A DNA stretch of 64,000 nucleotides from contig NZ_CP040331.1 of NCBI RefSeq assembly GCF_005576615.1, positions 310,001 through 374,000 on the forward strand, read 5' to 3'. Position 1 is the first letter of the stretch, and every line of letters starts with the position of its first letter. The notes below the pieces were generated by a model. The model saw nothing but the letters and a program-made list of their open reading frames with translations. It had not been told where the DNA came from and did not search any database. The translations under genes and the position numbers were made by a program. The DNA is from Natrinema versiforme (GTDB lineage: Archaea > Halobacteriota > Halobacteria > Halobacteriales > Natrialbaceae). Shown in pieces: positions 20,405 through 62,338 of the stretch.

Positions 20405-20424
20405 TCCCGAGGCCAACGGCAGTG

Positions 20425-20616
20425 ATGCCTCTGGACGATCGTCGCGAAGACCTCCTGGTCGCCGTCGCACTGACCGAGTTCAGCGTTCACTACGAAGACG
20501 CCGATCCCGAACTCTCGCGAGCAGCGTGGCAGCTCGCAGCGAGCCGCCTCGTCGATCACGACCTCGAACCGCTCGAGGCCGTCGACGCACTCGAAATTGG
20601 GAAGAAGATATCTTAG
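20425..20616 (+). CDS. Repeated ~60-aa protein, copy A
   Basis: 63 aa: MPLDDRREDLLVAVALTEFS then VHYEDADPELSRAAWQLAAS and a conserved EAVDALEIG end. Same family as 47107 (copy B), 52782 (copy C), 54786 (copy D), pseudogene 51935 (copy E) and tail fragment 21056 (copy F). Predicted all-helical, acidic, Trp once. The sequence GAGGCCAACGGCAGTGATG before the start is a weaker version of the palindrome seen before copies C-E. Function unknown. It ends 4 bases into the convergent gene. Confidence 0.75.
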   Translation: MPLDDRREDLLVAVALTEFSVHYEDADPELSRAAWQLAASRLVDHDLEPLEAVDALEIGKKIS

Positions 20617-43453: not shown

Positions 43454-44416
43454 ATGGAGCGTCCGTCGTCACAAACAATGACTCCGAGTGACTGTTCGCA
43501 GGTGTCCTTCAACGACTCGGACACCAGACGTGAGGAGATGCAGAGCACGATGGAAACGTGGGTCGAAGACCTCGTCGACGAGGTCGATGACGCAGTCTCG
43601 AGCGATGAGTTCCAGCGGTGGCTCGATGTACAGAGCCGCTTTCACGATTATTCACATCGAAATACGCTGCTGATCAATCGCCAGTATCCAAATGCGACCC
43701 GGGTCGCCGGCTATCGGACGTGGCAAAACGAATTCGACCGTCATGTGAAAGAAGGCGAGAGCGCAATTTGGATCTGGGCACCGATCATCGCGAAGCAGTG
43801 TCCCGAGTGTGAGAACTCACCGTCGTATCACGATCGAAGTGACTGCGAATACAACGAGACACCGCCCGAGGAGTGGTCAAAAGGACTCGTCGGCTTTCGG
43901 CCAGCGCCAGTCTTCGATATTTCGCAGACGGACGGGGAACCACTGCCCGAACTCGAGACCGAAGCGACTGGAACTGCGGATGAACTGGTGCCAGCACTTC
44001 TCGAGGTAGCCTCGTCACTCACCGTGGAGGTAGATATCGTTTCTCGAGACAACTGGCCTCACGGCGATGCCAAGGGCGTCTGTCAGTACCGATCGCCTGC
44101 AGAACGACCACTCGTCGAAGCACGTGACCGTGAGAACAGCGCCGATCTCGCTGTGACGCTCGTCCACGAGTACGCTCACGCGCTGTTACACAGTGGCATC
44201 GACGACGAGACTGAACGGTCGAAACGCGAACTCGAGGCAGAAGCAGTCGGCTACATCGTCGGCCGATACTTTGGACTCGATACGAGCGGTTCGGCATTCT
44301 ACCTCGCTGCGTGGCAGGGCGACGAGCCGGAAGCGATTTTCGACCGACTCGAGCGGATCAGTTCAACAGCGGCGGAGATTATCGACACCGTCGACGAGGT
44401 GATCCTAGATGAGTGA
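43454..44416 (+). CDS. ardC: ArdC-like antirestriction protein (ssDNA-binding plus metallopeptidase)
   Basis: 320 aa from ATG 43454. ArdC_N: FHDYSHRNTLLINRQYP, WQNEFDRHVKEGESAIWIW, then a four-Cys insertion (CPECENSPSYHDRSDC). The C-terminal peptidase has HEYAH at about 240 and a downstream Glu (EAEAVGY). ArdC protects incoming DNA from restriction, in keeping with the secretion operon. The next gene overlaps by 8 bases. Confidence 0.8.
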   Translation: MERPSSQTMTPSDCSQVSFNDSDTRREEMQSTMETWVEDLVDEVDDAVSSDEFQRWLDVQSRFHDYSHRNTLLINRQYPNATRVAGYRTWQNEFDRHVKEGESAIWIWAPIIAKQCPECENSPSYHDRSDCEYNETPPEEWSKGLVGFRPAPVFDISQTDGEPLPELETEATGTADELVPALLEVASSLTVEVDIVSRDNWPHGDAKGVCQYRSPAERPLVEARDRENSADLAVTLVHEYAHALLHSGIDDETERSKRELEAEAVGYIVGRYFGLDTSGSAFYLAAWQGDEPEAIFDRLERISSTAAEIIDTVDEVILDE

Positions 44417-44639
44417 CCGGGAACTCCTCTTCGAAATCATCGACACGCTCGAGACGGAAGGACTCGATCGTGACGAGTACCAACTCCACCGAATGATCGA
44501 TGTCGAGTCGCTCGAGCAGCTTGTGAACTCGGCTAATCCACACGCTGGGCTCGAGCTCAGGTTCTCAGTGGGTGAGTTTCGGCTCTGCGTGACGCAGTCC
44601 GATGTGCGGATTCTTACTTCAACAGAGGAAGACAGTTGA
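44409..44639 (+). CDS. HalOD1-like output-domain protein
   Basis: 76 aa: LLFEIIDTLETEGLDRDEYQ, then the HalOD1-type strand pattern ending LRFSVGEFRLCVTQSDVRIL. Such domains appear in haloarchaeal regulators. Starts ATGAGTGA inside the ArdC end, so it is coexpressed. Confidence 0.65.
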   Translation: MSDRELLFEIIDTLETEGLDRDEYQLHRMIDVESLEQLVNSANPHAGLELRFSVGEFRLCVTQSDVRILTSTEEDS

Positions 44640-44787
44640 GTGGCTTTTCCTCTTCAGCAGTGGAACGGATCGGTAGCGATCAGTGGCAGGTAATCCGCAG
44701 TCGCTATAGATGCGTATCGATCAGCGTCAGAGAACGGAATAGCCACCACTTCTATATGTTCACTTAGCCTCGTTCACTCTATCGACG

Positions 44788-44952
44788 ATGAATGATCAGG
44801 GAAGTACAGAGGAAGTATCTATCCACTGTACCGAATGCGGAGCAGTCTATCCCGCGTTTCGGCTTCCTGATGGGACATTGACGCGGGCCAGCAACAGGCC
44901 ATCTTGCCGGTGCGGAAGTGATTCATTTGTTGAATTGAAGAGTGAGGACTGA
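44788..44952 (+). CDS. Small zinc-ribbon protein, 54 aa
   Basis: MNDQGSTEEVSIHCTECGAV plus a later CRCGSD give four cysteines in a zinc-ribbon arrangement. Isolated on its strand. Function unknown. Confidence 0.5.
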   Translation: MNDQGSTEEVSIHCTECGAVYPAFRLPDGTLTRASNRPSCRCGSDSFVELKSED

Positions 44953-45179
44953 GCAGTCTGCTACCTGTCTCTATCACTACAGCCGAATTCTATATTCCCG
45001 GGTTCTCGTATCCAATTATGAGTCCTCAGTTTCAGTTCCCAGTTGTACGCTTGACTAGAGCAGGTTGGTTTTACTGTTAGAGCCGACACCAGTCTGGTAC
45101 TATTGAAGTTGAACGACCGATGTAGGATATCTGGCACCAGCTATCCTCTGGAGTGTGTAGTCACATTCGAATTGTGTAC

Positions 45180-45449
45180 TCACACGTCAGTCTCTGGCGT
45201 CGTCACACGGAGGTCTCCGTCAACCGCATAGAAGTACCCTCGCTCAAGCAGCCGGGTGAGTGCGTAGTCTGCGTCCTCGGACTCGAGAGATATATCAGTA
45301 TCATTGAGAAGAACCGTAAGCGCGTGCTCTCGAGAGACTGACTGGATATCTTCCCCATCGACTGGATCGAAACAAGACGTACAGAGGACATCGTACGCGT
45401 CCACGATCCACTCCGGCAGCGGCGGCCGCGGATCAGTAAGATCATTCAT
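45180..45449 (-). CDS. Hypothetical winged-helix-like protein, 89 aa
   Basis: Acidic. VSREHALTVLLNDTDISLES and ALTRLLERGYFYAVDGDLRV look like helix-turn-helix and wing; CTSC near residue 25 is a single pair. TATTTTTAAG (45486-45495, minus strand) is a candidate promoter. No firm family. Confidence 0.5.
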   Translation of the reverse strand: MNDLTDPRPPLPEWIVDAYDVLCTSCFDPVDGEDIQSVSREHALTVLLNDTDISLESEDADYALTRLLERGYFYAVDGDLRVTTPETDV

Positions 45450-45603
45450 CTCGCGTTCGGTACCAGAATCGTCGATATTGAACGGCTTAAAAATACCCCC
45501 ACAGCAACTGGGAGCCTACCGCTGTAAGACGCCTCGTGAATTTAAGACAGAGTCGATAAGACCGTACATGGGAGTGCCACAGAACAATTCGCATGGGGTT
45601 CCT

Positions 45604-45623
45604 TTCAGTCTATTTAGACTGAA
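45604..45623. repeat. 20-bp perfect palindrome
   Basis: TTCAGTCTATTTAGACTGAA, arms of nine bases and a two-base centre, in the gap before the convergent 63-aa gene. Could be an operator or a short terminator stem. Confidence 0.6.
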
Positions 45624-45667
45624 CTGTCTGTTCACTACAGGTGCGAACGTACCGAAGCGTGCAAACA

Positions 45668-45859
45668 TTATCTCCGGTCTTCCTCTTCTCCCTGATGTTC
45701 GCGGATCTGCCTCTCTAACTCGTGACGCCGATAATATTGCTCACCCATGGAAAATCCGAGTATCAACCCTAACGCAGCCCCAAATACGTGAAAAAGGAAG
45801 AACCCAATAATCATAAACATAACTCCGGGGACGAGAATTGAGACACTTTTTGACGCCAT
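45668..45859 (-). CDS. Small membrane protein, 63 aa
   Basis: One or two hydrophobic segments (SILVPGVMFMIIGFFLFHVF and AALGLILGFSMG) then a charged tail (YYRRHELERQIREHQGEEED). AATAAGG around 45888-45894 could serve as promoter. Unknown function. Confidence 0.5.
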   Translation of the reverse strand: MASKSVSILVPGVMFMIIGFFLFHVFGAALGLILGFSMGEQYYRRHELERQIREHQGEEEDRR

Positions 45860-46077
45860 ATTTTTATCACTACTACTTACGTCCTTATTCGTTTCTAACA
45901 GTAAGTGCGTTAGCTGTACTTACCGCTCGTCGGGTAGTCACAGAATAGATCTGCGAGCCGTTCTCTGACTCCCTCTTGGACATTCGAATCAGACTGACTC
46001 CTCCACTACGTGCCGGTCTACAAGTATTTTTCGCGCCTGACAGGTGAGGCGCGACGACGTGTGCCTCGAGAGTACCA

Positions 46078-46638
46078 ATGAGTACAGATCAACCGATCCA
46101 TCGCGAGCAGCAGCAACCCAACCATGACCGCAGTAACACAGGTGACCGAGAGCAAAGGTATTCCGGAGACGTTGCTCGACTAAACGGGCATGAACTCATC
46201 GCAATCGATGAGTGGCTCCCAGGAAGGGAACCGACACAATACGATCTCGACCTCACCGATAGCTACGAGTATCGCACACGCTACTGGCGCTGTCGGAACT
46301 GTGGGCAAGAACGCAATCGTCGCGACGAGTTCAGAGACCAGTGTGAAACACCAGCACCACCGACCCCACTCGAGGCGGAAGGGTACTCGATCAACGACCC
46401 ACGAACTCGCCGTGCATTGAGCGAGGACATGGACGTCCACTTTGCCACGGCGGGCGCTCTCTACGAGGTTGTGAGTGAGAGTGGACATACCTACGAGGTC
46501 GACATCGAGAAAGAGACGTGTAGCTGTCCAGATTTCGAGCAGCGCCAGCCAGATGACGGCTGCAAGCATCTTCGGCGTGTCGATCTCGAGATTCGAACTG
46601 GACTCGTTCCTGCTCTAGATGGAACATTCATTCGATAA
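46078..46638 (+). CDS. SWIM zinc-finger protein
   Basis: 186 aa. First a four-Cys cluster (CRNCGQERNRRDEFRDQC), then the SWIM motif CSCPDFEQRQPDDGCKH, which binds DNA or protein in transposases and plasmid proteins. Its first half is related to the relic at 39669. A disordered, Gln/Asn-rich start precedes. No partner gene is adjacent. Confidence 0.75.
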   Translation: MSTDQPIHREQQQPNHDRSNTGDREQRYSGDVARLNGHELIAIDEWLPGREPTQYDLDLTDSYEYRTRYWRCRNCGQERNRRDEFRDQCETPAPPTPLEAEGYSINDPRTRRALSEDMDVHFATAGALYEVVSESGHTYEVDIEKETCSCPDFEQRQPDDGCKHLRRVDLEIRTGLVPALDGTFIR

Positions 46639-46793
46639 GAGAGAGGACTCGCTTATTCGAGGTTATTTATCTCCCTTAGAGTGGTGCAGGGGACGCGAAC
46701 AAAGTCCACTGTACGATGTATGGAATCCAGATTCACAGCAATAGCGTCCGGCAGAGCTGAGACGATTCAATTCATGAAACGAGGTATCGCCAG

Positions 46794-46940
46794 ATGACCG
46801 ACCGCGACGAGTGCCGAGTACCGACCTGTACGAGACTCGCCCGTGAACAGGCAGGGTACGGCCGGTTCTGTTCAAAGCGGTGTGAACCCGCTATGAGCAC
46901 CTCCAAACGGACGCTTGAGACGCCGCTCAGGAGGATGTAA
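46794..46940 (+). CDS. Small Cys-rich protein, 48 aa
   Basis: Cys spacing CRVPTC then CSKRC may bind zinc; Lys/Arg-rich end. The same frame continues past its TAA with protein-like sequence to 47060, so it might be a truncated larger gene. Confidence 0.45.
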   Translation: MTDRDECRVPTCTRLAREQAGYGRFCSKRCEPAMSTSKRTLETPLRRM

Positions 46941-47106
46941 TCAGAGGATAGGCCAGAACAGAGTGTCAGCGATGACAAGCGGGTTCCTCTCGACGATATT
47001 CACGAGTCGGTCCTGTCAGCGTATCCCATCCCTCTCTTCTACAAATGCCCCAGTCAAGCACCGATAGTCCTGAGGTTTATCAAAGAAGCCGAACCCAACA
47101 TCGGCG

Positions 47107-47298
47107 ATGTCTCTCACCGATCGACAGGAGGATCTCCTTGTCGCAGTTGCACTGACCGAGTTCAGTGTTCACTATGAGAACGCTGATCCCGAACTCGCTG
47201 AACAGGCGTGGCAGCTTGCAGCGAACCGTCTCGTCGAGTACGACATCGGGCCTGCCGAGGCCGTCGATGCACTCGAGATAGGGGAGACGGGATTTTGA
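47107..47298 (+). CDS. Repeated ~60-aa protein, copy B
   Basis: 63 aa: MSLTDRQEDLLVAVALTEFS ... VDALEIGETGF, intact. TTTATC at 47075-47080 is 27-32 bases before the ATG; GAACCCAACATCGGCGATG before the start is a degenerate form of the palindrome of copy C. Alone between two unrelated genes. Confidence 0.78.
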   Translation: MSLTDRQEDLLVAVALTEFSVHYENADPELAEQAWQLAANRLVEYDIGPAEAVDALEIGETGF

Positions 47299-47443
47299 TG
47301 CTCTCCTCGAGAAAACTGTAAAAGCGCCCGACGAGTGGAGGTATCAACTGTCGCCGGCGAGATTTGAATAATGCCAAGGAGGATGGTGGGTAGATCGGCC
47401 ATGTCACGCGGTGGAAGTGCAATAGAGAATATATGATACCGTA

Positions 47444-49090
47444 TTATTCGTCGCTCAGTTCTGTTTTGATAGTTACCTCGACTATGTCACCACTGTCGAC
47501 ATCAGCGGTCTCTAGAAGTTGCAAGACCTGCTTGTCCGCACCATCGCTCAGTACACGGGCTGAAACCGTTTCCTCGGATCGGTCGAGTGTCGTTTCAATC
47601 GCCTCGAGACGGGCGAGGACGTCTTCCTCGAACGATTGATCGCTCTGTCGGTCGTCCTCGTCACTTTCAGCTGGTTTCGAAGCGTCATTCTCAGGATCGG
47701 GATCGGAATATGGGTCCTCGATAGCTCCTGAAAACGTCTCCTCAAGGGCATCGAGATCGACACCTTCTGCCTCGAGATCGATCGACCCATGTCGACAGCG
47801 AGGGAGTGAGGCGTCGATCTCGAGTGACTGTTCTTGGAGAGCTTCCCACTGTCGGCTTTGAATTCGGCTTGCAGTCGAGTCGGTGATCCAGTCGGGGACC
47901 TGCCACTCGCCGTTCTCGTAGAGACAGTGGATCCCTGTATCGTTCGTTCCCCACGTAAAACAGCGATCGAAGCGCTGCTGAAATTTCTTGAGTGTACGTC
48001 CGCTCGCGTGCTTGATGACGACCTCTTTCGGAGCGATATCGTGGACAATGTCGGTGATCGTCTCGCTACTGGGATGGTTCGACAGTGAAAACGCCTGTGT
48101 GGTACAGCGGGTGTCTGCTGGGTCGACCTCGTCTCCCGTCGTCAATTGAACGAACGCAGCAGCAGGATCGCCGCCGATCGCCTGCAGGAGTCGCTGTGTA
48201 CTGCCGGTCGTCGGCATCTCGGGGCCGGCAATCGTGATCCCGCCATCTGCCAGTACCTCGTTCGTCCGGTCGAAGACCGCTGTCGGTTCGACCCCAGGGA
48301 CATCGTACTCGAGTCTGTCGTAGAGTTTCGCAGCCTGACCGACGAGCGTGATCGGAACCCCGCGTTCGAGTATTTCTGTACAGTGACCCAGCAGTGTTGC
48401 GTAGTGAACGCCCGTCAACGAACTCGCTGCGACGACCACTCGTGAGCCAGCATACGCGTGCTCGAGGGTCGACTGAAGTGACTCATTCAGTGATGTCGTG
48501 TAGGAATCGTTGCTCGCAACGTTTAGCAGGAGACAGTCGATATCGAACGGGTACGATGTTTCCAGCCCCGGAAATCCCGCACACGGTCGCGTCGTGAAGT
48601 CCCCCGAGATGAGAATGTGTTGCTCGCCGTTGAGGGGGTCGTCAGTCGCCGTCTCATCGTGAAACCTGACCAAGAACCCTGCCCCACCAGGCGTGTGGCC
48701 AGCGGCGATCGGCCGGACCTCGAGTCCGTTGAGGATCGACGTCCAGTTGTCGATCGGTTCGAGGGCGTCGAGAGCGGCGGAGACATCACCAAGGTCGTTG
48801 TCCTGTGTGGCTTCCGGAAGGGACTGCTCGAGGATAGCGGCGGTTGTGTCTGCGGTATAGATCGGAGCATTGTGTCGGACGTTCGTTGCGAGCGTGTGAT
48901 AGTGATCGATATGCGGGTGTGTGAGTAGGATCGCGTTCAGATACTCATCGTCTGCAAGTAGTGTGTCGAGATTGACGCCATCTCCTGCGTCGACGAGAAT
49001 ACAAGCACGCGTGCCATCCGCAGCTGTAAACCGTAGCAGCGTCGATTCGTTGCCGCTGTTGATATTTGCATGTTGATAGGAGACACGCAT
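47444..49090 (-). CDS. Metallo-beta-lactamase-fold protein with coiled C-terminus
   Basis: 548 aa. Residues ~20-230 form the MBL core: HPHIDHYH zinc motif, later ISGDFTTR Asp and the loop HTPGG with ligand His. A beta-CASP-like inserted section follows (VVVAASSL, then IKHASG), and the C-terminal ~100 residues are acidic, with a coiled segment. Could be a nuclease or a hydrolase; beta-CASP motifs are not clear. CTTTATAC at 49120-49127 (minus) suggests the start at 49090 (ATG 49105 is an alternative). Confidence 0.7.
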   Translation of the reverse strand: MRVSYQHANINSGNESTLLRFTAADGTRACILVDAGDGVNLDTLLADDEYLNAILLTHPHIDHYHTLATNVRHNAPIYTADTTAAILEQSLPEATQDNDLGDVSAALDALEPIDNWTSILNGLEVRPIAAGHTPGGAGFLVRFHDETATDDPLNGEQHILISGDFTTRPCAGFPGLETSYPFDIDCLLLNVASNDSYTTSLNESLQSTLEHAYAGSRVVVAASSLTGVHYATLLGHCTEILERGVPITLVGQAAKLYDRLEYDVPGVEPTAVFDRTNEVLADGGITIAGPEMPTTGSTQRLLQAIGGDPAAAFVQLTTGDEVDPADTRCTTQAFSLSNHPSSETITDIVHDIAPKEVVIKHASGRTLKKFQQRFDRCFTWGTNDTGIHCLYENGEWQVPDWITDSTASRIQSRQWEALQEQSLEIDASLPRCRHGSIDLEAEGVDLDALEETFSGAIEDPYSDPDPENDASKPAESDEDDRQSDQSFEEDVLARLEAIETTLDRSEETVSARVLSDGADKQVLQLLETADVDSGDIVEVTIKTELSDE

Positions 49091-49689: not shown

Positions 49690-49849
49690 GTCCCGAGATA
49701 CGACGAGTGGTTACTTTATCTTGTTATATAATAACATTACTAGTCGATGGGTACCTCTATGGATAGCCGGAAGAAATCAAAAAGTTCCTCTCCTGAGTGT
49801 TGCCTTCCAATCGAGAGTTTGCTACACTCTGGATTCCACTGTAGATTCA

Positions 49850-49927
49850 GGTCCGGATGCGGACGAATCTGAGGTACCGTCTATGTGGGACCGGACGAAA
49901 CAGTTGTTCGGGAGCGACTCAGAGTGA
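49850..49927 (+). pseudogene. Relic of PrimPol gene tail
   Basis: Encodes SEVPSMWDRTKQLFGSDSE, clearly related to the end of the PrimPol protein at 33913 (SIWGRAKQFVGDGD). It is followed, as there, by a CCCCGGAGGGG element. The rest of the gene is absent. Confidence 0.6.
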
Positions 49928-49947
49928 TGTCAAACCCGCTGCGTAGT

Positions 49948-49975
49948 GTTTTTCACCCCCGGAGGGGCTGAGGGG
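49948..49975 (+). repeat. GC-rich CCCCGGAGGGG element, copy 3
   Basis: GTTTTTCACCCCCGGAGGGG followed by CTGAGGGG, the best match to copy 2. Behind it a 40-codon frame starts at 49999 but is not supported as a gene. The DNA 49690-49849 is AT-rich near 49720 and unassigned. Confidence 0.55.
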
Positions 49976-50128
49976 TTTCCACATTACCCCGGAACCGTAT
50001 GTCTTCTGTACAACTGCACCAGCAACACTGGCGTATCGATCAAGTACCAGCCGAACCGGACGTATCAACGTCATTGGAGAAGACCGCCTTCCCAGAAGTT
50101 ATTTATGAACCGGTGAAGTAATCTATCT

Positions 50129-50806
50129 ATGGGCAGTAAAAGTATCCAAAGAGGCGCCTCACTTGAGCTGGCAGTCCCTGTCCCTTCTACGGACCTCTTC
50201 AGTCACGCCTGTACTGGGGAGATTCTTACATTGCTTGTCGACAATCCCTATACAGCGTTCGGGATTCGGGATTTGAGTCGGGCAACGGATAATCCACATC
50301 GAAGCATTTCAGCAGCCGTTGACGACCTCAAAGCGGTTGGCTTCGTCGAGATCGAGCATAGTGGGCGGAAGAAGCTCGTTCAGATTAATCGTGCCCGACT
50401 CAGCAAGCCTGACGATCCGATTATCCAGATCCCACAAACGGAGTTTCATGCCCCGATTCGAGAACTCGTCTCGAGACTGACTAACAACGTTGACGATATC
50501 CACGGAATCGTCGTCTTCGGCAGTGTTGCTCAAGGGAATGCTGATCGCCGAAGTGATATCGATTGTTTCGTCCTCGTCGACGGTACGCAGGCGACAGCCC
50601 AGCAAACCGCCGACGAACTCACGTCGGAGTTGAACGAGGAAGTCTTCGATGGTGACCGCTACAAATTCCACGTCCTCGTCGAATCCGTTGAGAGTGCGCG
50701 ACGATATGGGGATCGGCTGCGCGAAATCTTCGCCACCGGACTGACGCTTGAAGGATCCGACTCTCTCACCCAACTCAAAGAGGAGGTACTGACGAATGGA
50801 CGATAG
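50129..50806 (+). CDS. MNT nucleotidyltransferase antitoxin with wHTH
   Basis: 225 aa. Winged helix (about 40-95: AFGIRDLSRATDNPHRSISA) then nucleotidyltransferase: GSVAQGNADRRSDIDCFV, the GS...DxD motif. MNT antitoxins AMPylate or otherwise block HEPN toxins. TTATTTATG at 50098-50106 supports the ATG at 50129. The HEPN gene overlaps its end by 11 bases. Confidence 0.85.
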   Translation: MGSKSIQRGASLELAVPVPSTDLFSHACTGEILTLLVDNPYTAFGIRDLSRATDNPHRSISAAVDDLKAVGFVEIEHSGRKKLVQINRARLSKPDDPIIQIPQTEFHAPIRELVSRLTNNVDDIHGIVVFGSVAQGNADRRSDIDCFVLVDGTQATAQQTADELTSELNEEVFDGDRYKFHVLVESVESARRYGDRLREIFATGLTLEGSDSLTQLKEEVLTNGR

Positions 50807-51293
50807 CTACGTCGACGAAGCGCTCTCCGACGCTGAGGTGTCCTTTCAGCGGACCCGTGGACAAACTGGTGAGTCCGATCTGGATGTCTCTAACACCGCT
50901 CTCGTTCAGCTACGGAAGGCCTGTCGGCTCCTCGAAGCAGCACGAACGCTCCGCGAGCAGAACGGATACTATACGGTAGTGATCGAGGCATCGTTTGTGG
51001 CCGCCGAGCGCAGTATTCAGTTCTATCTGCTGCATCGTGGACACGCATCTGGGGAGGACTTACGCTACGAACACACAGAGGTGTACCAGCAAGGTGCGAA
51101 GGTGAATTTGTTCAGCCAAGAGTTCGCTGACCGCCTTACCCAACTCTGGAAGCAAAACCGAGCCGAGGTGTACTATCGCGAGACGGTTGCCAGTGCCGAA
51201 CAAGCCGATGCAATGCTGGCACTTGCCGAAGCAGTTCACCGGTATATTCTGAATGCCGCAACACTACGGCATGAATGCGTCTGCTCTCAGTGA
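50796..51293 (+). CDS. HEPN-domain toxin
   Basis: 165 aa, all-helical with the HEPN pattern; the RNase site appears as NRAEVYYRE, i.e. R-x4-Y-Y rather than Rx4-6H, as in other MNT-linked HEPNs. Forms a two-gene unit with the MNT protein. Function: RNA cleavage on release, used for plasmid keeping or phage defence. Confidence 0.82.
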   Translation: MDDSYVDEALSDAEVSFQRTRGQTGESDLDVSNTALVQLRKACRLLEAARTLREQNGYYTVVIEASFVAAERSIQFYLLHRGHASGEDLRYEHTEVYQQGAKVNLFSQEFADRLTQLWKQNRAEVYYRETVASAEQADAMLALAEAVHRYILNAATLRHECVCSQ

Positions 51294-51404
51294 GCGATGT
51301 GAATGAGTCTCGTCCCAAACGACCCATATATCCATTCCAGGATGACTACTCTGTGACCTTGATTCAGGTGCGCCGGAGATTTCCCGGTGGGTTTGATCGG
51401 TGAG

Positions 51405-51478
51405 TGAGGTACGTCTACAAGACGATGAACGCAGAACTCGGGCTTCCAGCCAAGCCCGTAACTCCCAGTGGTTTGTGC
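51405..51478 (+). pseudogene. TFB fragment
   Basis: RYVYKTMNAELGLPAKPVTP matches the start of the second cyclin repeat of TFB proteins (compare TAYNAMNVELELPTQPIA at 42560). Only about 24 codons; frame broken at both ends. Surrounding 51294-51934 has nothing else supported. Confidence 0.4.
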
Positions 51479-51934
51479 CATGACTTGCGGTAAGTACAAA
51501 GGAGTACTGATCACTCAAGAGAACTCAAAGAAGTACGCGACGGGAAGGAATTGCACCCTCGGCACCCCCGTGGAACGGGCGTGTGTTACGCTACACCACC
51601 GTCGCACTGTCTGCAACGGTACTATCGCACGTATCAGGAAAGGTTATTTAGCCGATACCGGCGCGTAAACCGCCACCATCTTGTTGCCGTGGGCCGCCGA
51701 GAAGTCACAAACCACTGTTCACTACAGCTGGGTACTGAACGCACTGTGAGTGATCAAGGAACGGCGGCCATCGAATCGTCTCATGGTTGGGCCGGTGAAA
51801 CGGTTGATGACCGCCACTCTATGGGAGGGACTGGATCCGATTGTAGAGGAGTACTGCATACACAGAATTTTTATACCGGTATTGAAATTCGAGCATTAGA
51901 ACAGGGAGCGAGCAGCGGTAACGACCCTTGTTGA

Positions 51935-52096
51935 GCGCGACGACAGCCTCTGCCGGCCCGACGTCGTGATCGATGAGGCGGCTCGCTGCGAATTGCCACG
52001 CTCTTCTCGAAAGTTCGGGATCGGCATCTTCGTAGTGGACTGAGAACTCAGTCAGTGCAACGGCGATCAGAGGTTCTCTTGTCGTTCAGTGAGCAT
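51935..52096 (-). pseudogene. Repeated ~60-aa gene, copy E (frameshifted)
   Basis: MLTERQENL then a premature stop; one C is missing at the codon CTC-CTG, after which the family sequence goes on in another frame (IAVALTEFSVHYEDADPELS and AWQFAASRLIDHDVGP). The end is also altered. A palindrome GCCGGCGTTGGC and a GTTTTATC box precede it as in copy C. Confidence 0.75.
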
Positions 52097-52650
52097 CGCC
52101 GGCGTTGGCCGCGGATTCCTTGATAAAACTCAGGACTCGGCGAGTAGGAATCGGAGGGCGAGGGTGATGTCAGACGGATGTTTAGCACAACCGACTTCCT
52201 CGCCAGATCAACGCAGATACTATCTCCTTATCAATCTCGTGGTCACCATTCCGTATCCGATTAGGCACTTTGAGAAGCGCTGGCCAGAGGCCGACGTTGG
52301 AACCCCCTCCCTCAAGTGGTGTGTCAATCAGGTGGGGTCTGAAATCGGGACCAAGTGATGTTCGGTGAACCGACCTCAGTGTAGCGAGAGAGATGTCTCG
52401 GAGTGAATTTGGTGAATCGACCAGGTCTCCTGTCTCTCGCTATCAGAACCTCAATACTCTAATCAATTAGTTCTATTGGCCCCATAGTAGGGGAACAGCA
52501 CTGTTCCGGCCGAAATAGTTGATAGCATCCCTGTTTATTCGTCGCTCGTCGGCAGAATTCCACATGGCCAGTGGGACGATTCTTGCACACTCGGAATCAG
52601 GACGGCGTTGATATAGGTCGGTCCGAACATATTCACTGTCGCGTTCTCCA
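52097..52650. other. Unassigned region with duplicated leader DNA
   Basis: The sequence ATGTCTCGGAGTGAATTTGG (52392-52411) and its neighbourhood matches that near 53311 (ATGTCTCGGAATGAACCGG) upstream of copy C, so the upstream DNA of copies E and C was duplicated with the gene. No gene is supported. Confidence 0.4.
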
Positions 52651-52811
52651 CTACGCGACACGAAATCAGCACCCGAACCCCACCCCAACCATGTCCTGTA
52701 TCCGCCTGGCGGCCATCCCCCCTGTGCCCATCCAGGCGGTCTTTTGAGGCCTTCTCGAGGCACTCAGACGCTGAGCGATAGCTATCCGATCTCGAGCGCG
52801 TCGACGGCCTC
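52651..52811 (-). repeat. Shared downstream segment of copy C (match to 21056)
   Basis: Reverse complement aligns with 21056-21210 through GATAGCT, GCCTCGAGAAG, GGATGGGCACA and GACATGGTTGGG to GTGTCGCGTAG. Includes the last codons of copy C. Confidence 0.75.
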
Positions 52812-52958
52812 CGCGGGTTCGACGTCGTGATCGACGAGGCAATCGGCAGCCAGCTGCCACGCCTGCTCGGCGAGCTCGGGATCAGCTTGCTCGTAGTGGA
52901 CTGAGAACTCGGTCAGTGCGACGGCCATCAGGAGGTCTTCCTGTCGATCGGTAAGCAT
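52782..52958 (-). CDS. Repeated ~60-aa protein, copy C
   Basis: 58 aa: MLTDRQEDLLMAVALTEFSV ... AEAVDALEIG, ending in the shared downstream repeat. Start ATG 52958, with TTTAAATAC (coding strand) 27 bases upstream and the 12-bp palindrome GCCAACGTTGGC between. The most complete example of the repeated unit in this window. Confidence 0.8.
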   Translation of the reverse strand: MLTDRQEDLLMAVALTEFSVHYEQADPELAEQAWQLAADCLVDHDVEPAEAVDALEIG

Positions 52959-52959
52959 C

Positions 52960-52971
52960 GCCAACGTTGGC
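52960..52971. promoter_or_regulatory. 12-bp palindrome in the leader of copy C
   Basis: GCCAACGTTGGC, one base before the start codon. Copies D and E have GCCAGCGTTGGC and GCCGGCGTTGGC at the same place. Position between promoter and start suggests an operator or a translation-blocking hairpin. Confidence 0.6.
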
Positions 52972-53460
52972 CGCGGCTTCGTATTTAAAGAACAGTATGT
53001 GAAAAGCGCCGTGTGGCCCTCTAGTGGGTACGTGACGATGGCCGTGCCTCTGACGTTGGATCGACTCGAGCTGTGGTGGGTCCGATGTCCCAGATTGGAT
53101 GGATGTCATCGACAGCCCGCTTCCACCCCCAGTAGATGATTCGGCCTGTCTGGAGAAAGCGTGGTGGCTGACAGGTAAGGGTGCGCCTCAAAGAAAATGT
53201 TAGCATTTGAGCCCCCTTCCGCGTTGAGATGTGCCTCTAGGGGAGGGTCCGAGACCGAGACAATTTGGCAATTGGCATCACATCCGAATGCAATCGATCT
53301 CGGAAGGCGAGGTATGTCTCGGAATGAACCGGTTGTGAATAAACGACCGGATCTTCTCCTCTCGCCACTATCGTCTCGAGTCCGTTCCAGAATAACTCTA
53401 CTTCCCAAATAGGCAGGTAACAAAGATGTTACCGGAAGATGAACGGAAGAGAAGTCCTAT
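52972..53460. other. Region without supported gene
   Basis: Contains the promoter of copy C near 52985 and decayed DNA homologous to that before copy E. No protein-like frame beyond short chance ORFs. Confidence 0.4.
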
Positions 53461-54785: not shown

Positions 54786-54965
54786 TCATCTCCCAATTTC
54801 GAGCGCGTCGACGGCCTCGAGCAGTTCGACATCGTGATCGACGAGGCGATCGGCAGCCAGTTGGCACGTTCGTTCGGCAAGCTCGGGATTGGCGTCTTCG
54901 TAGTAGACTGAGAACTCGGATAGTGCGACGGCGACGAGGAGGTCCTCCTGTCGATCGGTGAGCAT
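54786..54965 (-). CDS. Repeated ~60-aa protein, copy D
   Basis: 59 aa: MLTDRQEDLLVAVALSEFSV and EAVDALEIGR, intact, with a changed Trp to Cys (RTCQLAADRLVDHDVELLEA). TTTTTATCC (54989-54997, minus) and the imperfect palindrome GCCAGCGTTGGC precede the start. It is convergent with the exported protein gene. Confidence 0.75.
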   Translation of the reverse strand: MLTDRQEDLLVAVALSEFSVYYEDANPELAERTCQLAADRLVDHDVELLEAVDALEIGR

Positions 54966-55025
54966 TGCCAGCGTTGGCCGCGACTTCGGATAAAAAGGTC
55001 AGCATCCACCGTAAGCTGTGGTGAA

Positions 55026-56312: not shown

Positions 56313-56382
56313 CTTGAGACACTGCACCAGACGTGACGCTGTCGGACTATCTGGAGCCATAGACTGATCCAGAACGATACAG

Positions 56383-56406
56383 ACACACCCCTCGTTTTCA
56401 GTGAAA
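56383..56406 (-). repeat. ORB-like repeat R1, left origin
   Basis: CACACCCCTCGTTTTCAGTG; complement reads CACTGAAAACGAGGGGTGTG. With R2 in opposite orientation it flanks an AT-rich stretch (56407-56613, e.g. AATAATATAATG). Confidence 0.7.
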
Positions 56407-56613
56407 GGGGGTGAATGTGTGAAAACAACTCTGATCTCAGATAGAACTACATATAAAGGGTTGGCATTAAGAAAGACCATTTCTTTCCATCGCTAGTTAG
56501 AGAAATTATCTATCGACTACTACACTACTACTTTACCTATACCAAAAATAATATAATGTCCCGATCAGAGGATCCGGTCTCGAGTCGAACAGCAGGTTCT
56601 CTTGTACGGAGCC

Positions 56614-56640
56614 TTTCACTGAAAATCAGGGGTGGGTGTG
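56614..56640 (+). repeat. ORB-like repeat R2, left origin
   Basis: TTTCACTGAAAATCAGGGGT then GGGTGTG. Inverted with respect to R1. Confidence 0.7.
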
Positions 56641-56746
56641 TCTGGTATCCTCTCTTCAGCCAAGTTTCATCACGCAGTCCGGGTTGATGATAGTTGGTGT
56701 AGAAGGTGATATCAGGACACCCTTCATGTTCCGACGTATCGAGAGA

Positions 56747-56771
56747 TACACTCGTGATCAGGGGTGTGGTG
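56747..56771 (+). repeat. ORB-like repeat R3, left origin
   Basis: CACTCGTGATCAGGGGTGTG, same direction as R2, close to the end of the Orc1/Cdc6 gene. Weaker match. Confidence 0.55.
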
Positions 56772-56789
56772 AGCGACCGAACCGGGGAG

Positions 56790-58073
56790 CTATGCCAGGT
56801 CTTCCAACCGGCTGTCCCGAAGCACAGATTTCAGCACGATTCCAGTGTCCTGAACCAGCCGATGCTCCAGATAACTGCCCTCACCTCGACCGCCACCAGT
56901 CCGAGTTGATTCAACGACACCGAGGAACGCCTGCTCTTTCAACAGTTCATAGACGCGATGTTCGCTGAGGATTTTTGCGTCGGCTTTCTCTGCCGTCGCT
57001 TGATAACGTTCGTAAATCCGGTTCGTCGAAAATCCGTCCTCATTCGGATTCTCTTCGGTGAGCAGCGCAAGGGAATAGAGGATGAATTTGACCTGCGTCG
57101 TCGATCCTCGTAGCAGTTCCTCGAATCGATCGATTTCAGCCCACTCTTGGGCATCACGAACGTGCTCCTCGACGACCATATCGACGTTTTCTCGCTCAGC
57201 AAGTTCGCCAGCGTGACGGAGAATTTCGATGGCCTTTCTGGCGTCACCGTGTTCCTGAGCGGCTAATGCTGCAGTCAGGGGGATCACGTCATCAGAGAGA
57301 ACTCCCTCGTGGAACGCGTCTCGACGGTGCTTCATAATCTCGCGCAGTTGGTTCGCATCGTAGGGTTGGAAGACGAACTCCTCCTCACGAAGACTGGACT
57401 TGACGCGCTCGTTCAACTGGTCCCGGTACTCGATCTTGTTGCTGACTGCGATGACGCCTAAGTGGCAGTCCGCTTTCCCCGATTCGCGAGCACGCGACAG
57501 TTGCATGAGTATATCGTCGTCATCGAGTCGATCCACCTCGTCAAGGATGATAATAACTGACTCGTAGGCGGTATCCAAAATATCCCAAAGATAGTCGTAG
57601 TATTCACCACTCCCAATTCCTGCCCGTGGAATATCAAAGTCAGTCTCGTCCGTCTCGTTGAGTGTACGGGTCACCGTCCTAGCAACACGCGTCTGCGTAT
57701 TGTGCTGCGCGCAGTCAACGTAAACCGAGCCAACGGACACACCGTTCGACTCCGCAGCTCGGCGAGCTCGTTCGGTAACGTGGCGAGCAACCAGCGACTT
57801 CCCCGTACCCGTTTTTCCGTAAATAATCACGTTGTTGGGCGGATCGCTACGAATGATCGGCCTGAGTTCAGCGGCAACAGCCTTGATCTCGCCATCACGA
57901 CCGACGATACGTCCACTTTCAGGAACATGGCCTACTTTCAGCAGTTCCTTCCGAGCGAAAATGCTGGCACGGTCAGGGTCGTCTTCATCTAAGTTAAAGA
58001 GGGGATCGTCGGAAGGGTCCTCGTAGCCGCCGTCGAAGTCAGAGAGTTGGGATGGTTCCTCAGCCATCAACAT
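56790..58073 (-). CDS. cdc6: Orc1/Cdc6 replication initiator
   Basis: 427 aa. AAA+ ATPase: Walker A GKTGTGKS, Walker B IILDEVDRLDDDD, sensor-1 GVIAVSNKIEYRD, then lid and a C-terminal winged helix (ILSEHRVYELLKEQAFLGVV). It binds origin repeats next to it and loads replicative helicase. Start 58073 (MLMAEEPS) fits TTAAG on the minus strand 26-30 bases upstream; ATG 58067 is in frame. Complete length. ORB-like repeats on both sides strongly suggest it starts replication of this replicon. Confidence 0.93.
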   Translation of the reverse strand: MLMAEEPSQLSDFDGGYEDPSDDPLFNLDEDDPDRASIFARKELLKVGHVPESGRIVGRDGEIKAVAAELRPIIRSDPPNNVIIYGKTGTGKSLVARHVTERARRAAESNGVSVGSVYVDCAQHNTQTRVARTVTRTLNETDETDFDIPRAGIGSGEYYDYLWDILDTAYESVIIILDEVDRLDDDDILMQLSRARESGKADCHLGVIAVSNKIEYRDQLNERVKSSLREEEFVFQPYDANQLREIMKHRRDAFHEGVLSDDVIPLTAALAAQEHGDARKAIEILRHAGELAERENVDMVVEEHVRDAQEWAEIDRFEELLRGSTTQVKFILYSLALLTEENPNEDGFSTNRIYERYQATAEKADAKILSEHRVYELLKEQAFLGVVESTRTGGGRGEGSYLEHRLVQDTGIVLKSVLRDSRLEDLA

Positions 58074-58241
58074 CAGACATCGCGCACGGGAACTACTTAA
58101 TGATTTGGCTACCTCGACAAGAGTGTAAATCGGGCTATGGTCATCTTCTGATGTTTTGTCTCTGGCGTATCATCCTCATAAAGAGTCGAGTCAATCCCGA
58201 GTGAAATAGGGTTCTGGACGACGGGTAACAACTTTAGTCGG

Positions 58242-58520
58242 CACCCCTGATCCAGAGTGAAAACACCAGAATCAGACGAGTTTGCCATACCCCCAGTCCA
58301 GAGTGAATAGCGCATCATCTAGTGAGCAGAACAAACGATCCAGGCCACACCCCTCGTCCCGAGTGTAACACCGAACGAGGCAATCATCAGTTTCCCAATG
58401 AATAAAGAAAATGTCTGACACGGCAGACACCCCTCGTCAAGAGTGAAAAACCCAACGAATAATGGAGTTCATGTATGAAATCTTTGAGAATCAGCTGGCA
58501 CCCCAGGTCAAGAGTGAATC
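58242..58520. repeat. Array of five ORB-like repeats R4-R8, upstream of Orc1/Cdc6
   Basis: All in one orientation: 58242-58263, 58289-58308, 58346-58368, 58427-58450, 58498-58520. Common form CACCCCTCGTC(C/A)AGAGTG, whose complement CACTCTGGACGAGGGGTG resembles haloarchaeal ORB sequences with a G-string. Confidence 0.8.
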
Positions 58521-58740
58521 AGGAGGAACTGTGAAACCTCCTCAAGAATGCGAAAAACAGTTCCAGTGAAAGCAGACGAGTCTCAGTCAGATCGGTCGTG
58601 AACAGGATCTCCGATTTCAACCTGATGATACCGAATTGATGGAATTCATTCCAGATGCGGGATAATAGGTTTCTATGATCGATCATCAATCCAGATACGG
58701 ATTGGTATCTCACGATGGATGTATGATGGAATAGAACCCA

Positions 58741-58765
58741 CACACCCCTCGTCCAGAGTGAAAAA
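58741..58765 (-). repeat. ORB-like repeat R9, origin core
   Basis: CACACCCCTCGTCCAGAGTG then AAAAA, a full match to the consensus, left border of the AT-rich unwinding region. Confidence 0.8.
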
Positions 58766-58860
58766 CTTCGATAGTGTCTCAGTAGATCGGGGCGAAATCG
58801 GAGGCCGGCTCGAGGAGATAACACCGAAATCACGAGATGGGAGGGGATGTATTCATGAAA

Positions 58861-58975
58861 CAGCCTTCACACAAACAACGACTTGCTACATATCAATATT
58901 AGTATTTCTATCTAGAAGTTTTATTACTGTCTCTTCCATACCATTCGCCAAGTGCATTCATTACAATAAGAAGGA
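58861..58975. other. AT-rich candidate DNA-unwinding element
   Basis: Locally AT-rich (CATATCAATATTAGTATTTC, AAGTTTTATTACTG) between the inverted ORB repeats R9 and R10. The 58074-59219 gap holds no supported gene. Confidence 0.6.
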
Positions 58976-59136
58976 CGAAGACGGCATTCGTCCGGGTAGT
59001 TACGAACTGCTGCTCATAATCGCTATTCCTTTCTCTCTATATTTCTACGTCTTAGGCTATCTTTCCGTGGTTCTTTCTGGATACCCTTCTCGGCAACCTC
59101 CGTTTCTTGTGGACCTTGTCCCACTCTCTCGACTGG

Positions 59137-59164
59137 TTTTCACTCTTGACGAGGGGTGTGTGGG
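59137..59164 (+). repeat. ORB-like repeat R10, origin core
   Basis: TTTTCACTCTTGACGAGGGG then TGTGTGGG, opposite to R9 across the AT-rich element. Confidence 0.8.
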
Positions 59165-59219: not shown

Positions 59220-59260
59220 TTAACCAACAATCCTTCGGGACTCTCAATTTTGTTGGTTAA
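59220..59260. repeat. 41-bp inverted-repeat element, copy 2
   Basis: TTAACCAACA (59220-59229), 21-base spacer, TGTTGGTTAA (59251-59260). The PolB relic's stop codon (TAA on the minus strand, 59257-59259) lies in its right arm. Confidence 0.8.
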
Positions 59261-60075
59261 CTCTCGTTGAGCTTGGTGAAGGCCGACAAGTTTGTTCCCC
59301 GAGTCTCATCGATTTCGCGTCGAATCTTCCTCTGACCCCATCCGAACGGTGACAGCACACTTTCGACAGCTCTGACGAGTTGGGTCTCGTAGTACGAGGC
59401 GTCGTAGGTCTCAATATCTTCGTGAGCAAGGGCGACGCGGTCCCACGAGGCTTTCTCGTCGTCGACGACTACGTACTTGATATCCTGTCCAGGATGGATG
59501 GCGAGGTTCTGGTCACGAGCCCGTTCGAGCGCCGCCACATTCTGCGTATTCTGCGTGTAGCCTTCGAGTGGCTTGGAGACGCGATTCCGTTCGACGAGCC
59601 GCTCTACAGCAACGTCTCCCGCATGGAGCGCTTCGATCGCTCTCTCGAGGCGACCGAGAACCGCTTCTGGAGACTGTGTTGCATCGAGACGCTCGAGACA
59701 GTCTCGCTGGACGTCTTCGATGAATGGCGGGGTCGACCGCTGGCGAGCCTCGATGCCTCGGATCTTGAACTCGTCGACGCCGGCGGTCGCGGGCATCTCG
59801 TACAGTGTCGAGATAATCCCGCACGTTGAACAGACCAGGATATCTAGGTTCTGATCCTCGAGGCAGTACCGAAACTCCCGCAAGAAGTTGACGTTGAAGC
59901 ACGCGAGGTTCCTGACTGGATACGTGTTTAGCTGCCGTGCCTGCCGCACAAGTGGGGTGATGCGATTGATGTGTACGACGTCGACGGCGAGGACCGACTC
60001 CTCGTCGCGACGGAATCCGGGTCGTCGGGCAGTCTCTGGGTCACCAGTCTCTGAGTTATGAGGATCTCCGACGCA
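59257..60075 (-). pseudogene. polB: PolB with large internal deletions
   Basis: An open frame of about 273 codons without good start. Its N-terminal part (RRPGFRRDEESVLAVDVVHI, NLACFNVNFLREFRYCLE, LDILVCSTCGIISTLYEM) and C-terminal part (KIRGIEARQRSTPPFIEDVQ, VSKPLEGYTQNTQNVAALER, HPGQDIKYVVVDDEKASWDR) are those of haloarchaeal plasmid PolB. Between DEF and KIRGIEARQRS the exonuclease and polymerase core is missing, in frame; a shorter gap after FRYCLE is also likely. It cannot polymerise DNA. Flanked by copies 2 and 3 of the 41-bp element. Confidence 0.75.
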
Positions 60076-61899: not shown

Positions 61900-62338
61900 T
61901 AGCCCGGACGGATTGTGCAGTCTAAAAACGACCCCCTGAGATCGGTGTGGCGTCTGGCAACGACCGACGCCGAGTGGATCTGAGACGATGATCGTCTGTC
62001 GCGCAGTCGGGCGCGACGTGTGACGTTATCACACGCAGCGCTATCAATCTCGTGGCCCGCGGGTTCACTCGAAATCTGGTGTGTTGAAAACGCCACGAAC
62101 GGCGCAGGGGAGTGCAAATGCCCGCTCGCGGCGTACTGGGGATGTCGCGCATGTGGAGACGCGACAGGCGAACGGATGCGTGCTGGCCTGTTGAATCTCG
62201 TGCCAACAAGGATTGGCCTACTCTGCCCAATTGGTTTTACTGACGAGTAATACTGTCCAAGCATACTGGGTTGTTTGAACAGTATTACTGGCTTGTCTGC
62301 CGAGTATTTATGTGGGGTTAGAACGACACTCTGCCTGT
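61900..62338. promoter_or_regulatory. ParA upstream region with 11-bp inverted repeat
   Basis: No supported gene in the first 345 bases. At 62246-62289, AGTAATACTGT and ACAGTATTACT enclose 22 bases; further TACTG units lie nearby (62238, 62264). TATTTATG (62305-62312) is the ParA promoter. The repeat sits about 15 bases upstream of that promoter and is a candidate ParB-type binding site or operator. Confidence 0.6.

Follow-up and report, generated by a model that had tools for sequence, protein, structure and literature searches.

Orc genes and origins are numerous in haloarchaea, and the specificity of Orc-origin pairs is thought to keep replicons compatible. The origins described beside their orc/cdc6 genes share a recognizable anatomy, in which G-string ORBs form an inverted pair around an AT-rich region with the orc gene adjacent, and for several orc genes ORBs have been reported in both flanks (Wu 2012, PMC3528665). 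At Hla_3512 and HQ2959A, a single orc gene is accompanied by two AT-rich regions and by ORBs of two classes (PMC3528665). In H. hispanica oriC2/oriC2D, ORBs flank a cdc6 gene on either side; the 11 ORBs of oriC2D are attributed to the adjacent Cdc6E and have no origin activity alone, and extra ORBs of this kind can lower initiation, probably by titration, so that the sign of the effect of extra repeats on initiation cannot be assumed (PMC3936714). In the same species, origins without a cdc6 gene of their own replicate when the gene is present elsewhere in the cell (PMC3936714).

The orcA locus lies in the window, by which we mean the whole 64-kb stretch that was analysed (positions 310001-374000 of contig C3, which has 492,102 bases), in a 4.67-Mb genome with 20 Orc/Cdc6-lid matches. 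It has the G-string ORBs, the inverted pair around an AT-rich region and the adjacent orc gene of the described origins; unlike them, as far as the accessible part of PMC3528665 describes them, its two flanks hold different ORB classes, the second of which is traced to an initiator encoded in the same genome. ORBs on both sides of an orc gene, and two classes next to a single one, have been published before (PMC3528665). What is new is the identity of the second class: judged by sequence comparison, it is the diverged copy of an origin, and the initiator of that origin lies elsewhere in the same genome. In Hla_3512 and HQ2959A the second element differs and no other initiator is named in the accessible part of PMC3528665, whereas here the second initiator is identified by homology and co-occurrence. 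A search of mainly the open literature found no case in which an orphan origin of one ORB class had been traced to another initiator encoded in that genome. We are fairly confident that, in the anatomy and origin of both parts, these are two origins of different specificity placed back to back; most likely, a cognate OrcA origin has been joined to an orphan OrcB origin that would be reachable only in trans.

Two ORB classes around one initiator gene

The ten ORB-like repeats that the initial annotation placed around an Orc1/Cdc6 gene are all present and correctly located, and the other elements it proposed (an origin associated with Orc1/Cdc6, inverted pairs on both sides and two AT-rich unwinding candidates) were borne out by Pfam matches, by position and strand, and by duplex stability, as follows:

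56355-56663, plus strand: oriB, an orphan origin block of class B made up of R1, an AT-rich core and R2; copy of the C4 origin beside orcB
56386-56405, plus strand: R1, class-B ORB (20-nt core)
56466-56565: candidate unwinding site of oriB, AT-rich, ranking second among the least stable 100-nt peaks of the 64-kb window and containing the conserved core of the oriB family
56615-56634, minus strand: R2, class-B ORB (20-nt core)
56663/56664: junction at which C4-like DNA meets the orcA plasmid module, from blastn end points
56747-56766, minus strand: R3, class-A ORB (20-nt core) immediately beyond the stop codon of orcA
56790-58073, minus strand: orcA, Orc1/Cdc6 initiator of 427 aa, passing the Pfam cut-offs for Cdc6_lid and Cdc6_C
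58242-58518, plus strand: five-site array R4-R8, class-A ORBs upstream of orcA
58242-58261, plus strand: R4, class-A ORB of the array
58288-58307, plus strand: R5, class-A ORB of the array
58348-58367, plus strand: R6, class-A ORB of the array
58428-58447, plus strand: R7, class-A ORB of the array
58499-58518, plus strand: R8, class-A ORB of the array
58743-58762, plus strand: R9, class-A ORB forming the inner arm of the inverted pair
58873-58972: candidate unwinding site of oriA, AT-rich, ranking fourth among the least stable 100-nt peaks of the 64-kb window
58973-58993: conserved dyad GGACGAA-N7-TTCGTCC between R9 and R10 (37 aligned loci)
59139-59158, minus strand: R10, class-A ORB forming the outer arm of the inverted pair

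The GC skew of the window makes no sharp turn at this locus.

The repeats had been taken as one ORB set for one initiator, and this part of the initial annotation did not survive. R3-R10 (class A) follow the pattern CACCCC-N3-TC-N2-GAGTG(A/T)A, with CCAGAG or similar at the centre and T as the first letter of R5; R1 and R2 (class B) read CACCCC-N3-TTTTCAGTGAA, with the centre TTTTCA. On a class-A matrix R3-R10 score 25.7-31.7 bits, and since this matrix was built from the same eight sites, independent support comes from relatives, in which they recur at fixed positions. When the window was shuffled 100 times (first-order), no class-A match reached 20 bits (highest 18.3). R1 and R2 reach only 16.7 and 15.0 bits on the class-A matrix, a level that shuffles attain, versus 32.9 and 31.3 bits on a class-B matrix, and on these scores a single class was rejected. 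The TTTTCA centre occurs in 0 of 306 class-A sites, a count biased by preselection of those sites with the class-A matrix. From these scores and the distribution described below, R1 and R2 are assigned to a different ORB class, tied to a different Orc than R3-R10. A further weak ORB-like site (62064-62083, 15.2 bits) lies upstream of a ParA-like gene; 27 of the 100 window shuffles reach at least this score, so it is possibly a chance match.

The mismatch-free class-B core occurs at six places in the whole genome: R1, R2 and four positions on contig C4 (272369, 272410, 273847 and 274075), which surround the gene orcB. A seventh, class-B-like site with two mismatches (C4:273761) also lies next to orcB, and the reversed control pattern has no match in the genome. 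OrcB is 46% identical to OrcA; no close second copy of it was found in the genome, the C4 gene being the sole orcB. Of 125 family genomes, 23 contain one or more class-B sites (at most one mismatch), and in 18 of them the number is at least two. A match to orcB (E <= 1e-140) is present in 16 of these 18 and, among the other 107 genomes, in G110 only, where it is partial (as are those in G020 and G073); related genomes not being independent, this co-occurrence is to be read as an association and not as a tested probability. The two multi-site genomes without orcB are G055, with two tandem sites, and G089, with an inverted pair.

That all ten repeats nevertheless serve OrcA, giving two OrcA-driven unwinding sites, would agree with the CACCCC and GTGAA ends common to both classes. 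We consider it very improbable in view of the shuffle-level scores of R1 and R2 on the class-A matrix, the position of class-B sites beside orcB and their tracking of that gene across genomes, and the fact that 0 of 48 orcA relatives have class-B sites downstream of orcA.

The OrcA plasmid origin

The upstream side of the locus, oriA, consists of inverted G-string ORBs around an AT-rich region, next to an Orc1/Cdc6 gene with AAA+ and winged-helix domains, and its ORB class is conserved along with its Orc in relatives. Seven sites lie upstream (the inverted pair around the AT-rich stretch and the five-site array) and one past the stop codon. This exact eight-site layout was found by class-A matrix scan in 20 of 48 related loci, a set in which six distant Orcs (L097-L102, 34-53% identical) were kept; the remainder have fewer sites or shifted layouts. 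With this locus and a paralogue at C3:17k, the canonical pattern (an inverted pair, five further sites and one site 20-30 nt beyond the stop) is thus present in 22 of 50 loci, with a pair spacing of 387-402 nt and a positional standard deviation below 1 nt for the three sites nearest orcA. The array, which had been thought exceptional, is the standard layout of the OrcA plasmid-origin family, and we no longer regard it as an oddity of this locus. The strong or regulated initiation that the initial annotation suggested for it could, on the oriC2D precedent, instead be a lowering.

Upstream ORB columns are 0.96 conserved versus 0.86 for the remaining upstream columns, as calculated over the 22 loci that thinning left of the 24 with pattern +------; gap columns may account for the value of 1.0 at -472, which was set aside. 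The arms of the dyad between R9 and R10 are complementary in 246 of 256 cells over 37 of the 39 listed loci (L098 and L101 omitted), with covarying changes on both arms; when one arm was shifted by 1-3 columns as a control, just 14-75 of the 256 cells were complementary. The dyad is possibly a second-protein site or an enhancer, and in position it is reminiscent of an internal inverted repeat by which H. hispanica oriC1 is enhanced (PMC3936714).

The nearest relatives include plasmid pJ7-1 of Natrinema sp. J7-2 and its kin, with an OrcA 96.3% identical and alignable flanks; they differ in lacking the oriB block and in having an annotated type B DNA polymerase gene adjoining. At 59257-59949 the window has a remnant of a family B DNA polymerase gene, where several related plasmids carry an annotated polymerase gene (about 720 aa by coordinates in L105). 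In the plasmid collection, 13 records have an OrcA relative of at least 90% identity. We conclude from these comparisons that class A together with orcA is a conserved plasmid origin, common to many salt-loving archaea. OrcA would bind the inverted pair R9/R10 and the AT-rich stretch between them would unwind, while the array R4-R8 and R3 may load, buffer or autoregulate OrcA (probably buffering or gene regulation). With its fixed eight-site layout and conserved internal dyad across many genera, the OrcA family offers a clean target.

The paralogous OrcA origin on C3 (L022:3005-5447, or C3:17004-19446) lies about 350 kb away, with a canonical layout and an OrcA about 96-96.5% identical. The Halosimplex aquaticum plasmid NZ_CP118160 likewise has two OrcA origins (L061 and L071). 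Internal origin duplication has been held unlikely in haloarchaea (PMC3528665).

Descent and integrity of the oriB block

The 309-nt oriB block is 92% identical to C4:273818-274126, the origin adjoining orcB. Homology to C4 ends at 56663, and homology to other orcA plasmids starts at 56664 (L104) or 56670 (L103). Further C4-like blocks lie to the left in another order (44161-48192 and 49846-51944, each in two pieces, and 51938-52777). A misassembled duplicate of C4 was rejected because the identities are 92% for the oriB copy and 82-96% for the neighbouring blocks, not 100%; the idea that the C4 region had simply been circularly permuted was also discarded, the further blocks revealing a more complex rearrangement. 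A 107-aa ORF lies by orcA in many of the relatives, with good matches in 28 of the 50 sequences searched (which include the window and two C4 stretches) and weak ones in two more; the window itself has none. A fusion or rearrangement has probably put one arm of an OrcB-type element, through the end of oriB, onto an OrcA plasmid, with orcB left out, and the locus would then be a snapshot of the birth of a multi-origin replicon by fusion.

A repeat of about 200 nt has several copies in the window (20411-20600, 47084-47282, 51933-52118, 52784-52980 and 54793-55005) and others on C3 and C4, some of them at the edges of rearranged blocks. At 50129-51293 the window also carries a nucleotidyltransferase-domain gene with a partner ORF, resembling an MNT/HEPN toxin-antitoxin pair; C4 has a copy of it next to orcB, at 96% identity.

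The block has the inverted class-B ORBs and the AT-rich core of its family. Against 81 columns invariant in 11 reference oriB copies (the alignment left out L044 and L112), the window copy and the cognate C4 copy depart at 5 each; by this measure the orphan is as intact as its sister. The two differ at 25 positions, 0 of them in the ORB nucleotides counted. Differences fall at 9 of 143 conserved columns and 16 of 166 others, a depletion that is not significant (Fisher p 0.19), so that constraint on oriB since the duplication is unproven. The window copy is without the extra class-B-like site found beside orcB at C4:273761.

It is quite possible, if somewhat short of an even chance, that oriB on C3 is an inert leftover of plasmid rearrangement and that only the OrcA origin works. 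The gene adjoining oriB is orcA and not orcB, the block sits among rearranged C4-like blocks and repeats, two inverted class-B pairs were found in this genome only among the 125 of the family, and the non-significant depletion would suit a leftover as well; the ORBs and AT-rich core as intact as those of the cognate copy, and an initiator for oriB encoded in the same genome, speak against it.

Possible action of OrcB from C4

If the orphan origin is functional, OrcB made from C4 would act on R1/R2 in trans, and C3 would thereby carry an origin under the control of another part of the genome, serving as a backup, as a competitor or to titrate OrcB. From our analysis, activity of oriB in trans via OrcB is conceivable, at odds of roughly one in three. 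That OrcB from C4 also fires, or is sequestered, at oriB, being shared across contigs and possibly replicons, is on the unlikely side. Were it so, two large elements would have their copy numbers coupled by one initiator, and replication of C3 could begin at either of two origins within 3 kb of each other, one dependent on OrcA and the other on OrcB.

Sequestration without initiation, with R1/R2 titrating OrcB away from C4, has a precedent in what was proposed for the extra ORBs of H. hispanica oriC2D (PMC3936714). That precedent involves a downstream cluster of the adjacent Orc's own ORBs, whereas downstream of orcA only R3 is of class A; the two downstream sites of the other class form an inverted pair around an AT-rich core, an origin-like unit unlike the 11-site oriC2D as described in the accessible part of that paper, and we think pure titration distinctly unlikely. 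A natural orphan origin beside a foreign initiator, its own initiator being encoded elsewhere in the genome, is a ready test of origin cross-talk, backup or titration.

A second orphan can be compared with this one. In G089, with no orcB detected, the inverted pair has lost its AT core and 14 of the 81 invariant columns are changed, which is no clean sign of a missing OrcB since G109, with orcB present, also has a strongly diverged core (26 of 81 columns changed). Going by its layout, the G089 pair (L110:8878-9113), with its AT core deleted, is likely a decayed orphan origin.
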